Assembly (NCBI GenBank): GCA_028873925.1
Contig: JAPPNA010000115.1
Coordinates: forward strand, 1-48,236
Length of the DNA stretch: 48,236 nt
DNA from: Bacteroidota bacterium
Lineage (GTDB): Bacteria > Bacteroidota > Rhodothermia > Rhodothermales > Bin80
Direction of reading: 5' to 3'
This document shows positions 11,770 through 15,875 of the stretch, one piece after another. The notes beneath the pieces are model-generated. The model was not told where the DNA came from. It did not search any database and saw only the letters and a list, made by a program, of their open reading frames with translations. The stretch's first letter is position 1, and every line of letters starts with the position of its first letter. Position numbers and translations under genes: made by a program.

Positions 11770-13515
11770 TCAGGCGGGCACCGTCTGGGCCACCTTAAGC
11801 AGGACGATTTCGGTGTTGTGGTAGCGTTCGTGCCGCACCGAAGAGGTCAGATGCCGGAGCATACGCAGCGAAATATCCTTTTCCAAGGATGATTCCGACA
11901 ATTCCCGCCCCAGCAGGGCAATCTTGTCCTCAATATTCTCCTGGGTGTCACTGGCCACGAATTCCAGGCTGAGACCATCCTCCTCCTGGGCAATGATCAG
12001 ATCGAGATACTTCAACTTCCTCTCGTCGACTCCCGACTGTTCCGCGCTCAGAATGAGCAGGGCCTCTTCAGCGGCCGCCTGCGCGCGGAGTATGTCGTTC
12101 GGCCTCCATTTGTACCGGGTCGCAGTCTTTTCGATGAACTCCTGAATTTCGCCCAGCGCGGTGAGGGCAAACGGTGTCTGCAGATGATGCCGGCGCCCCT
12201 TGGTTATCGCAACGAGGGTGGTAAGCAGAATCGCAACCAGACCGCCGCCCACCATACCGCTGTCCAGGATTCCGCCTGCGAAACCTCCAATCACCTCCGG
12301 GAAAATGACCCCCTGCTGCAGGCCGGCACCAATCCAGAACGCGAACCCGACAATCAGGGAGGTACGGTAGTCAATGCCGTCCTGGACCACAATGCGCATG
12401 CCGACAACAAAGAGCATCGCAATCAGCACGATGACAAATCCGGCCACTACGGGCCCGGGAATCGCCAGAAAGACGGCCAGAATCTTGGGCTGGAAGGCGA
12501 CCACCAGAAATGTGATCCCGAGTGCAATGCCCACACGACGGGCGGCCACACCGGTCAGCTCAATCATGGAGATTGAGCTCGAATAGGTGGTATTGGGAAT
12601 CGTCCCTGCCAGGCCGGAAAGCAGATTGCCAACGCCATCTGCACTCAGTGCGCCTTGAACCGCGCGGAAGTCCACCGCTCGCGGCCGCCGCCACGACACG
12701 CGCTGAACGGCAATGGAGTCCCCGATAGTTTCTATCGCCCCAATCATGGTGACAAAAATAAACGCCGGCAGCAGGGTCCAGAAGGTTGTATCCAACGAAA
12801 AGGACAGCCCCGGCCAGCCGGTAGTGGGAAAGCCGAGCCAGCTTGCATCCGCCAGCACCTGTGTGTCATAGATATTGTAGAACAGGCTGGTTACCGTTCC
12901 GAATGCCACCCCGATAATCGGTGCCCACAACCGCAGCAGCCCGGTGCCTCTAAGGGCGATGGCGGCAATGGTGACTACGGTGATCAGCGCCGTTACCGGT
13001 GCGGCCGATGCCGGCGCGGTCTCGGGCACATCGTTGAGCATGTCAAAGAGAATCGGCATCACCGTGACGGCGATCAGCATGATGACGGTCCCGCTGACTG
13101 CCGGGGTGAGGATGCGCCGGAATTTGGAAAGGTGTGCGGCAAAGAGCAACTGGAACAGCGCCGCCATTACGATAAGCGTACACATGAGCGCCGGACCGCC
13201 GGAGCGCAGCGCCTCAATGCAGATGGCAATAAAGGCACCGGATGTACCCATAAGCAGGACGTAGCCTGCTCCAATCCGGAACTTACCCAAGGCCTGCAGA
13301 ATCGTGCTGATCCCACTGACCACCAAGGCCGCCGCTACGGCCCAGGCGAGGAATTCGGGCGTGCCCCCCGCAGATCGGATGATGATGGCCGGCGTGAGAA
13401 CGATGCCGCCCAGCGTCAGTACCGCCATTTGAATGCCCAGCCCCGCAGAAAGCGGTACGGGGGGCTGGTCCGTGGGCTCATATCGAATATCAACTCCTGA
13501 AGGTGCCGTTTGCAT
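11770..13515 (-). CDS. NCS2-type (xanthine/uracil) permease with extra RsbW-like C-terminal domain
   Basis: The first ~440 of 581 residues are a polytopic NCS2 nucleobase transporter: many hydrophobic spans, LGIQMAVLTLGGIVLTPAII near the start and GAIETIGDSIAVQR near residue 260. The family imports purines or uracil across the inner membrane with protons or sodium. The last ~125 residues are soluble and unlike normal NCS2 tails. They start EIQEFIEKTATRYKW, contain AAAEEALLIL and end EIVLLKV, a pattern resembling the GHKL anti-sigma/serine kinase (RsbW) fold with a degraded N-box. Function of that tail is inference. The gene precedes no clear operon partner; the upstream gene on this strand ends 47 bases away. 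Confidence 0.8.
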   Translation of the reverse strand: MQTAPSGVDIRYEPTDQPPVPLSAGLGIQMAVLTLGGIVLTPAIIIRSAGGTPEFLAWAVAAALVVSGISTILQALGKFRIGAGYVLLMGTSGAFIAICIEALRSGGPALMCTLIVMAALFQLLFAAHLSKFRRILTPAVSGTVIMLIAVTVMPILFDMLNDVPETAPASAAPVTALITVVTIAAIALRGTGLLRLWAPIIGVAFGTVTSLFYNIYDTQVLADASWLGFPTTGWPGLSFSLDTTFWTLLPAFIFVTMIGAIETIGDSIAVQRVSWRRPRAVDFRAVQGALSADGVGNLLSGLAGTIPNTTYSSSISMIELTGVAARRVGIALGITFLVVAFQPKILAVFLAIPGPVVAGFVIVLIAMLFVVGMRIVVQDGIDYRTSLIVGFAFWIGAGLQQGVIFPEVIGGFAGGILDSGMVGGGLVAILLTTLVAITKGRRHHLQTPFALTALGEIQEFIEKTATRYKWRPNDILRAQAAAEEALLILSAEQSGVDERKLKYLDLIIAQEEDGLSLEFVASDTQENIEDKIALLGRELSESSLEKDISLRMLRHLTSSVRHERYHNTEIVLLKVAQTVPA

Positions 13516-13562: not shown

Positions 13563-15875
13563 TTACGGCTGCTCCAGCTCCTCAAAGGTAAAGTTGTTGA
13601 GTGAATACTGCCGCCATTGGGCAAAGTCAAAATGCCACCACTCGGCCTCGTAGACAGAAAAACCGGCATCCTCCATCAGATCACGCAGCAGTTCACGGTG
13701 GAATCGCTGTCGGGCGGTGCCTCCGGGATAGTCCGGGAAGGCGCGGGCGGTAAACTCATCGTAACCGCTGACCATGTGCGCGGTCTGTCCCGAATCCAGG
13801 TGGTAGAGCCCGAGGTCTATGGCGGCACCGCGGTTGTGGCGTGACCCGTTCGCCGGGTTAGCTACAAAGAGTCGCTGATCCTCCGGCGTAGCATCGTAGA
13901 ACATTTTGGTTACATGCCACGGCCGGTAGCCATCATAGAGCACAAAGCCGTACCCGTGGTCCCGGGCGGCCTGGTGGGCCCTAAGCAGGGCATCGGCTGC
14001 CGGCCGCTGCAGGAAGACGCGCTGCTGGGTGTAGAATTGCGCACCCATGAAATTATTGGTACCGGCGTAGCGGACATCCAGCCGGAACAGGGAGTCCAGC
14101 GAGTCGAGGTCCACGAGTTCATTGGGCCGGAATGGCCCCGATTCTTCCGGCATATCGGCGGCCAATGCTTCCGCCCGCAATTCGTCCACCGGGCGCAAGG
14201 ACGTTATTCTGAATACTTCCTGCGGATCGGCTACAGAGGTCCGCCGGTCAAATACCAGCCCTTCCAGACTGACACGGGTAGCCTGGCCCTGAGCATTACG
14301 CCGGAAAGTGAGCGTTTCGTCAACGTACAGGCCTCCAGACGGGAATCGGTACCGGTCGGCCGAGAGCTCCTCTAGCGGGTAGCGGAAGAACCATTCGATC
14401 AGCGCGTAGAGTCGGCCGCGATCTTCATAGATATAGAGCACATTATGATTCCAACCGTATTCGCCGATCAGTCCTGCCCAGTGCGGGGGTGGCTCATCGG
14501 GCAGTGCCGCGGTCTGTTTCAGAAAAATGCCATCATCGGCAATAAGCGAGTCTCCAGACACCTGAAAGGCGTATCCGTGCCCAAGCCGATCTTCGGTAAT
14601 GAATCCCCGCCGGGTCGCAAGTACCTCAAAGCGTTCTGCTCCCTTATCAATGTAGAGGCGACCGCTGCGTTCAATAAGCGCGATGTCGCCTTCGTAGTGC
14701 CCATCAATTGCACGAGCGACGGCCGAATCCACCGGGAAAGTGGCTGGCAACGGCGGCTCCGGCAGCCGCGTATTGTCCCGGTGAGCCAGAAGGAGATCCA
14801 GTGCATAAGCGGCAATCCGGTCAACCACCGGGTTCACCGCATCCAGATTGGCTACTACAGCCACACCCACGGATTCATCCGGCAGCGCATATACGCGGGT
14901 GGCGTAGCCGTACATAACCCCCGCATGTTGGACGCGCCGGTGTTCCTGCTGCCAGGAGAGGCTGAAACCGAGGCCGAACCCGCTGGCCAGGCTGTCGTCG
15001 TTGAACTGGACCGTCCACATTTCATGGAGTGATTCCGAACTCAGAATATCAGGCCGTTCGCCGCGCCGGATAGCAAACAGGGTGTTGATGAACTGCCCCA
15101 GATCACGCACTGAGGTGTACAGGTTGGCCGCCGGACCGATGCCGAGTTCAAAGACGGGGGCTTCGGTCAGGTCCGCGGTGTCGTAACGCCACATATATCC
15201 GATTCCCAGGCTGTCGCGCAGGTCTGAACGCGGGCTGAAGCTGGTCTGCCGAAGCCCCATCGGCTGGATCAATGCGGACTGCGCATGCTCATGGAATGCG
15301 GTCTGGACCGCGTTTTCAATGGCGAATCCGGCAATGCTGACTGCGGCATTGGAATACTTGGTTCGGCTCTCAGGTGCCAGAATCAGCGAGGTGTTATTGA
15401 GGCTTGCGACCGTTACGTCAAGCGTCGGAGAGGTTGCATCAAAGTAATGGCCGACAGGAGGCTCCCGTACGAGTCCTGATCGGTGGCTGAGCAGTTGACG
15501 AAGCGTCACGGGTTTGCCGAACGGATTGTGAGGGCGGAATTCCGGCAGCCAGTCAGTTATGGGCGCATCCAGCTCCAGGAGACCCTGTTCGACCTGCTGC
15601 ATTACAGCCAGCGCGGTGAACAGCTTGGACACCGATGCCACCCGGTAGACCGTGGTCGGGGTCACCGGCCGCCCGGTGGCCGGATTACTGAGGCCGTAGC
15701 CTTGTACCCAGGCTTCCTGACCATCTGCGACGATGGCGATAGAGAGTGCCGGGATCCCCTTGGAGGCCAATTCCTGCCGGATAAACGCATCCAGCGGCTG
15801 GTGCCAGTCCTCGCCGGAAGGTGAGGTGCAGCCGAAAAGCAGCAGGATCGGTATAAAAGCAAACAGACCGCGCAT
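13563..15875 (-). CDS. Lipoprotein: beta-lactamase-type serine hydrolase fused to VanX-type D-Ala-D-Ala dipeptidase
   Basis: The protein has 770 residues. A lipoprotein signal ends LLLFGC, with Cys16 as the lipidation site. Residues ~25-350 are a class C beta-lactamase/penicillin-binding-like hydrolase with Ser81-Val-Ser-Lys84 and Tyr174-Ser-Asn176. A linker region of beta character follows. Residues ~580-765 are a peptidase M15D (VanX/DdpX) domain with YDGYRPW, His680-x6-Asp687 and Glu745-x-x-His748; the spacings equal those of VanX (H116, D123, E181, H184). VanX enzymes cut D-Ala-D-Ala. Combined with a serine hydrolase, this suggests envelope muropeptide turnover or D-amino-acid peptide scavenging in the periplasm. 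Resistance to glycopeptides is not implied because no vanH/vanA partner is nearby. Confidence 0.88.
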   Translation of the reverse strand: MRGLFAFIPILLLFGCTSPSGEDWHQPLDAFIRQELASKGIPALSIAIVADGQEAWVQGYGLSNPATGRPVTPTTVYRVASVSKLFTALAVMQQVEQGLLELDAPITDWLPEFRPHNPFGKPVTLRQLLSHRSGLVREPPVGHYFDATSPTLDVTVASLNNTSLILAPESRTKYSNAAVSIAGFAIENAVQTAFHEHAQSALIQPMGLRQTSFSPRSDLRDSLGIGYMWRYDTADLTEAPVFELGIGPAANLYTSVRDLGQFINTLFAIRRGERPDILSSESLHEMWTVQFNDDSLASGFGLGFSLSWQQEHRRVQHAGVMYGYATRVYALPDESVGVAVVANLDAVNPVVDRIAAYALDLLLAHRDNTRLPEPPLPATFPVDSAVARAIDGHYEGDIALIERSGRLYIDKGAERFEVLATRRGFITEDRLGHGYAFQVSGDSLIADDGIFLKQTAALPDEPPPHWAGLIGEYGWNHNVLYIYEDRGRLYALIEWFFRYPLEELSADRYRFPSGGLYVDETLTFRRNAQGQATRVSLEGLVFDRRTSVADPQEVFRITSLRPVDELRAEALAADMPEESGPFRPNELVDLDSLDSLFRLDVRYAGTNNFMGAQFYTQQRVFLQRPAADALLRAHQAARDHGYGFVLYDGYRPWHVTKMFYDATPEDQRLFVANPANGSRHNRGAAIDLGLYHLDSGQTAHMVSGYDEFTARAFPDYPGGTARQRFHRELLRDLMEDAGFSVYEAEWWHFDFAQWRQYSLNNFTFEELEQP

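Follow-up and report, generated by a model that had tools for sequence, protein, structure and literature searches.

The window analysed here is a stretch of 48,236 nucleotides (contig JAPPNA010000115.1) from a Bacteroidota genome whose named near relatives are Rhodothermales MAGs. On its minus strand an unbroken frame, read from 15875 to 13563, encodes a protein of 770 residues (P0001) in which a serine-hydrolase domain of the S12 family is followed by two β-barrels and a VanX-type domain of the M15D group. The coordinates given in an earlier, sequence-only reading were correct; the strand was absent from it. The features are as follows:

13563..15875, minus strand: S12 / β-barrel / β-barrel / M15D fusion, 770 residues (P0001); a single open frame, with Pfam matches and 59 other full-length copies
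15828..15875, minus strand: signal peptide and lipobox, residues 1–16 (LLLFGC, Cys16), from direct reading of the sequence
14796..15794, minus strand: S12 serine-hydrolase domain, residues 28–360 (PF00144, E 2.2e-63; Pab87, Z 41.5, rmsd 3.3, 363 aligned)
15624..15635, minus strand: nucleophile motif S81-x-x-K84 (S81-V-S-K84); S in 59/60, K in 58/60 sequences
15348..15356, minus strand: Y174-x-N176 motif (Y174-S-N176); Y in 59/60, N in 60/60
14919..14927, minus strand: H317-x-G319 motif (H317-A-G319); H and G each in 58/60
14511..14738, minus strand: first β-barrel, approximately residues 380–455, from AlphaFold2 secondary structure; the Pab87 alignment extends to model residue 448
14241..14495, minus strand: second β-barrel, approximately residues 461–545, resembling barrels found at the C-terminus of several S12 proteins
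13617..14123, minus strand: M15D / VanX-type D-Ala-D-Ala dipeptidase domain, residues 585–753 (PF01427, E 3.9e-36; VanX 1r44, Z 22.9)
13815..13838, minus strand: zinc ligands H680-x6-D687; each in 58/60
13632..13643, minus strand: E745-W-W-H748, catalytic glutamate and third zinc ligand; E in 58/60, H in 60/60
11770..13515, minus strand: gene for an NCS2-type nucleobase permease, 47 bases downstream of the fusion on the same strand and possibly co-transcribed with it

The genes surrounding the fusion are rpoC, the permease gene and, judged by eye, MOSC-like and HNH-like genes. The permease matches the NCBIfam models pbuX (E 5e-57) and ncs2 (E 2.1e-53), both below the curated cut-offs. By eye, it carries around 140 additional C-terminal residues that read like the remnant of a histidine-kinase-type ATPase. 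A scan for promoters and terminators gave nothing above chance.

With E-values of 2.2e-63 and 3.9e-36, the two Pfam domain matches are not due to chance. The S12 site, read earlier from the sequence as a complete SxxK and YxN pair, is indeed whole (S81/K84 and Y174/N176), and the HxG motif is present too, with all six residues kept in 58–60 of 60 sequences. These are the three motifs of the S12 D-stereospecific peptidase group (DAP, Pab87 and R61), and they correspond residue for residue to S62, K65, Y153, N155, H287 and G289, which are given as conserved in the D-aminopeptidase DAP (PMC3347556). Pab87, Lip3 DL-peptidase and DAP rank among the best structural matches for the part of the protein outside the M15 domain. 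The S12 part and first barrel superimpose on Pab87 (2qmi; 26% identity), an octameric enzyme, and Lip3 (9sn1) aligns with the S12 and following domains over model residues 23–545 (Z 40.4, rmsd 3.8, 418 aligned), stopping short of the M15D part. DAP from Ochrobactrum anthropi (1ei5), at Foldseek rank 5, is 19% identical to the S12 half. Both DAP and Pab87 (CubicO) share the catalytic set and C-terminal β-barrels, but neither has an M15 domain, and for P0001 the specificity is a predicted one. The S12 proteins span esterases, amidases, cyclases and LACTB; the esterases IS11 and EstB are closely related to this half and, as human LACTB (Z 40.2) and the IS11 esterase (Z 40.1) score just behind Pab87, the fold leaves the S12 substrate unfixed. 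The NCBIfam equivalog cut-offs for D-aminopeptidase (39 of 443 bits) and AmpH (81 of 266 bits) were missed.

Residues ~380–555 have no Pfam coverage at E 0.01, and the domain order, S12, barrel, barrel and VanX domain, comes from structure matches to the models. AlphaFold2 predicted the whole protein, from a 60-sequence alignment, with a pLDDT of 92.0 and a pTM of 0.88; a second model of residues 455–770 had a pLDDT of 92.4. In this structure prediction, a check that the sequence-only reading had advised, the S12 domain and first barrel match Pab87 and the M15 part matches VanX. For the second barrel the C-terminal barrels of the IS11 esterase (Z 10.8), the Ulm16 cyclase (Z 10.7) and DAP (Z 10.2; residues 421–520 of 1ei5, rmsd 2.5, 84 aligned) are tied. 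The order of an S12 fold followed by one or more β-barrels is thus that of DAP and Pab87, though since the esterase IS11 has it too, the arrangement is not specific to D-peptidases. As modelled, P0001 has the build of an S12 protein such as DAP or IS11, extended by a VanX enzyme, and each component belongs to known families.

The zinc site of the second half is likewise complete. H680, D687, E745 and H748 are all present and kept in 58–60 of 60 sequences, and H680 lies exactly 65 residues from E745, so that the VanX-identical spacing noticed earlier is confirmed. The sequence aligns to VanX (1r44) with an E-value of 4.2e-24, and the model superimposes on it with a Z of 22.9 (rmsd 1.9 Å, 179 aligned), while VanXY, VanY and LdcB reach scores of only ~9–10. 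By hand count on the alignment, VanX residues Y21, Y35, R71, S114, H116, D123, D142, E181 and H184 correspond to Y603, Y615, R651 (within YDGYRP), S678, H680, D687, D706, E745 and H748, and all nine compared positions are identical in E. coli DdpX. Y603, Y615, S678 and D706, which we take to be the VanX substrate-pocket positions, are invariant (58/58) in the set of active copies. P0001 therefore resembles VanX and DdpX in fold, zinc ligands, catalytic glutamate, arginine and compared pocket positions; it differs in being the C-terminal part of a 770-residue protein with an export-type N-terminus, in a shorter loop between R651 and H680 than that of VanX, and in falling below both equivalog cut-offs (VanX, 98 of 320 bits; DdpX, 131 of 176 bits), although it passes the broader Pfam M15 cut-off (125 versus 27 bits).

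The signal of P0001, MRGLFAFIPILLLFGC, closes with a lipobox at C16 that is plausible by eye, and to that extent the protein's description as a lipoprotein holds. Tethering would seem to be lineage-specific, as a loose lipobox pattern occurs in 28 of 59 homologues, the others having plain signal-like or anchor-like starts by eye. Counting the PF01427 subfamily only, P0001 is the single match in its genome (3.93 Mb, 185 contigs); Ddl (PF07478) gave four matches, one of them strong.

A search of other genomes for the fusion, as the sequence-only reading had advised, collected 59 further full-length copies from six phyla after removal of identical-core copies, the relatives being the best 80 of 116. 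At every one of the eleven catalytic positions 58–60 of the 60 sequences keep the residue, and 58 keep both active sites. The idea that two separate genes had been joined by error was rejected, given the unbroken frame and the recurrence of the fusion in these copies. They come from Rhodothermota, Gemmatimonadota, Acidobacteriota and Planctomycetota, and from MAGs of Pseudomonadota and Neomarinimicrobiota/Fidelibacterota; one carrier, L056, is recorded as the strain Limnoglobus roseus PX52. Three gammaproteobacterial MAG copies have a near-identical module nested in a Gemmatimonadota clade, so transfer or a binning error is possible. Within the window's own order, 55 of 114 genomes matched a barrel–M15 query and 18 had the full-length fusion by open-frame length and identity; two of these 18 (G023 and G044) had only a dead copy, described below.

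The barrel–M15 module also occurs without S12, in 20 short rows of the M15 tree or 15 after exclusion of broken-gene pieces (L066, L073 and L075), a contig end (L070) and E. coli DdpX (L102), and the S12 half is therefore not always needed. One short form, L107 of family f5, is nested in a clade of fusions, which makes loss of its S12 domain likely. Other partners or orders were found as well. Locus L093 has the architecture S12–DUF3471–barrel–M15 with a different S12 domain, and two further loci are:

L094:7482-9899, plus strand: reversed fusion, barrel–M15–S12, near further S12 ORFs, in one MAG
L084:1466-4201, plus strand: D-aminoacylase–barrel–M15 fusion in an acidobacterial MAG (1rjp, E 1.8e-79)

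The region of L084 corresponding to the second barrel has a DUF3471 match below the cut-off. In motif scans both halves of L093 and L094 have intact active sites. In the S12 tree the domains of 38 standard fusions group together with a support of 99. Placing the S12 domains of L093 and L094 within that clade, tested jointly, was rejected (AU p 9.5e-5); the tree was a quick one with 24 standard-fusion rows dropped at random to leave the 38, and L094 sits on a long branch. The pairing of these two domain types has thus arisen more than once. The M15 tree, also quick and with long branches, did not distinguish fused-first from separate-first histories, and it places the dead copies and E. coli DdpX unsurely. 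Among nine further pieces, chosen mostly for long ORFs, there was no second reversed fusion: five have the usual order in one ORF (L121 and L123–L126, L125 being the contig of L074), L127 is cut at a contig end with S12 before M15, in L128 S12 was not seen, and L122 and L129 have a separate S12 ORF, closer to that of L093, beside the M15 ORF. L094, from a MAG with a coverage of ~10, is therefore a single case. In its family (Gemmatimonadaceae) 85 of 148 genomes match the barrel–M15 query, fused or not.

No conserved operon was found, the neighbours differing elsewhere from those of the window. The NCS2 permease is the next gene in the window and in four of the 18 pieces examined (L022, L023, L024 and L076). 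Genes were called greedily as longest ORFs, a procedure by which some antisense ORFs are wrongly assigned in GC-rich contigs. The scan covered 65 of the 90 operon-like neighbours found for the fusions, giving seven matches to PF00144, seven to a bacterial PH domain with no clear link to the fusion, four to amino-acid permeases and three to TonB-receptor domains; among the 25 of 39 neighbour families listed, most occur once. A SusD protein adjoins L068, and a class-A-like beta-lactamase and an S12 gene adjoin the broken fusion of L073. Fourteen of the 80 loci have extra S12 ORFs nearby; these number 29, where ~2.5 would be expected, a count in which all those of L066 and part of those of L073 are pieces of their own broken S12 domains and from which an overlap filter removed the neighbour of L027. 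The expectation derives from 269 matches in ~79.9 Mb of 15 genomes, partly picked for their S12 neighbours, with another model and threshold than the locus count, and the Poisson value overstates the enrichment because S12 genes also cluster with each other.

For the short forms, 10 of 47 neighbours were scanned with Pfam, the two L073 neighbours given above being among the ten, and NCBIfam was applied to part of this set and to a small number of others. Aminotransferases (L091, L098 and L099), an M19 dipeptidase (L091), an amidohydrolase (L086), an acetamidase/formamidase-family gene (L089), a histidine kinase (L099), and S12 and enolase-superfamily genes (L088) were found. The enolase-superfamily protein has N-acylamino-acid racemase as its closest match (2zc8, E 1.5e-98), the NCBIfam name for its group being o-succinylbenzoate synthase, and a related gene lies upstream of the fusion in L034. 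Pab87 is reported to degrade D-amino-acid peptides, and its gene to lie near those of an aminotransferase, a D-aminoacylase and a dipeptide ABC transporter (PMC2651629), neighbours of which the first two resemble those of some M15-module relatives.

The most unusual element of the analysis is a clade in which the full-length fusion persists with both active sites destroyed. It was found in all three examined genomes of the Rhodothermales family f9:

L103:1966-4398, plus strand: doubly dead copy, family f9
L104:5382-7766, plus strand: doubly dead copy, family f9
L105:5440-7833, plus strand: doubly dead copy, family f9

In the S12 domain Lys84 and the HxG motif are gone in all three and Ser81 in two, and in the M15 domain H680, D687 and E745 are lost. 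The test of metal-ligand loss in homologues set by the sequence-only reading thus found loss solely in this small clade, at both sites together, with the ligands otherwise conserved. The dead copies keep 2–4 of 11 catalytic residues against 78–94 of 124 other conserved residues (Fisher p 0.0002, 0.02 and, short of significance, 0.11), and are 42–48% identical to one another. Intact frames at such divergence suggest a retained, non-catalytic role. The dead gene adjoins rpoC convergently in G035 and G044, and the piece of G023 examined was without rpoC. The window and six close relatives show the same convergent orientation to rpoC for the active gene; it adjoins rpoC directly in G003 and G004, lies ~3 kb away in G002, and is separated from it by the permease gene in the window, G007, G009 and G011. 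Because of this position and the S12 tree, in which the dead copies are nested in a Rhodothermales clade (support 99), descent from the active rpoC-linked gene is suggested, the M15 tree not being decisive. An intact copy (L106) is present elsewhere in G035. The dead copies provide a ready-made way to ask whether both sites belong to a single function. It is conceivable, though doubtful, that the fusion is a single D-peptide unit which in f9 has become a two-domain pseudoenzyme, still recognising D-Ala peptides at an S12 site and a VanX site that are both dead, the latter lacking zinc, and serving as an envelope binding protein, a sensor or a regulator of other D-peptidases. Upstream of the dead fusion is a PepT-type tripeptidase gene in L104 (3341-4594, plus strand; scored) and one in L105 (3547-4803, plus strand) that looks PepT-type by eye, and in both loci a GntP-type transporter gene lies beyond it.

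We consider it likely, with a probability of roughly 0.6, that P0001 is an exported and here probably lipid-anchored two-enzyme hydrolase that salvages peptides containing D-amino acids. The S12 domain would be a D-stereospecific peptidase of the D-aminopeptidase / DD-carboxypeptidase / Pab87 group, acting on longer peptides, and the M15D domain a zinc dipeptidase of the VanX/DdpX type, acting on D-Ala-D-Ala. Side by side outside the cytoplasm they could work on stem-peptide ends, D-Ala-D-Ala and debris peptides, and the free D-Ala released would be taken up as nitrogen and carbon. In E. coli ddpX is described as induced through NtrC under nitrogen depletion (PMC8743547), and an M15D enzyme can therefore serve under nitrogen shortage. 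DdpX activity has also been termed potentially lethal (PMC6403190); an exported dipeptidase would spare the cell's own D-Ala-D-Ala pool. Of the two-step processor proposed earlier, what stands is that a single exported protein has two hydrolase sites of different build, both intact, with conservation in 58 of 60 sequences, the structures of the parts, repeated fusion and D-amino-acid enzymes near some relatives behind it; what these sites act on, which acts first and that they serve salvage are our inferences. The variable gene context, the doubly dead clade and the lone barrel–M15 module count against salvage, which also does not explain the permease beside the window gene: as a nucleobase-type transporter, this Rhodothermales neighbour gives no pointer to peptides.

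The same pair of activities might instead be turned on the cell's own peptidoglycan, the S12 domain trimming it as a DD-carboxypeptidase and the M15D domain clearing the D-Ala-D-Ala released. P0001 would then be a two-domain counterpart of VanXY, with which it would share the combination of dipeptide and longer-peptide hydrolysis, except that one zinc site does both there while P0001 has two chemistries in two domains and a fold match to VanXY far weaker than that to VanX. The R61 DD-peptidase among the S12 structural relatives, the AmpH match below its cut-off, the export-type N-terminus and the lone PF01427 match in the genome fit such maintenance of the envelope. It is nevertheless unlikely given the patchy presence of the module, as 7 of 16 same-family genomes listed, including 6 of 10 in genus g6, have no barrel–M15 match; moreover, the genes that recur nearby encode S12 proteins, permeases and receptors, and the 25 neighbour families listed out of 39 include none for wall synthesis.

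Two unrelated activities carried on one polypeptide, for instance an S12 esterase and a dipeptidase, would agree with the closeness of IS11 and EstB and with the M15 module being found alone or with a D-aminoacylase. Yet different S12 domains were recruited anew in L093 and L094, and both sites were lost together in family f9, which argues for a shared task of the two halves and makes unrelated activities distinctly improbable. Drug resistance, with a beta-lactamase and a VanX-like dipeptidase directed against beta-lactams and glycopeptides, is suggested by the family names, the fold and a similarity to class C beta-lactamases, but that similarity is below the NCBIfam cut-off (bla_class_C, 74 of 415 bits), as is that to VanX (98 of 320 bits). 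VanX acts necessarily on the cytoplasmic dipeptide pool, whereas P0001 has an export-type N-terminus, and the adjoining genes of the window (rpoC, NCS2 permease, MOSC-like and HNH-like) are not van genes; we regard this explanation as very improbable.

Relatives of VanX are known mainly through vancomycin resistance. Among the literature matches listed, judged by titles and abstract openings and with most subscription journals and preprints outside the scope, no paper on an S12–M15D fusion was found. Here the VanX module has an export-type N-terminus and, in Rhodothermota, Gemmatimonadota, Acidobacteriota and Planctomycetota, is joined to S12 or other D-amino-acid enzymes; that such pairing arose repeatedly suggests a neglected way of reusing D-amino acids from the debris of cell walls. 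The fusion of L113 and L114 has next to it, by eye, an apparent metal ABC transporter operon with a regulator, for which a tie to zinc supply is possible.
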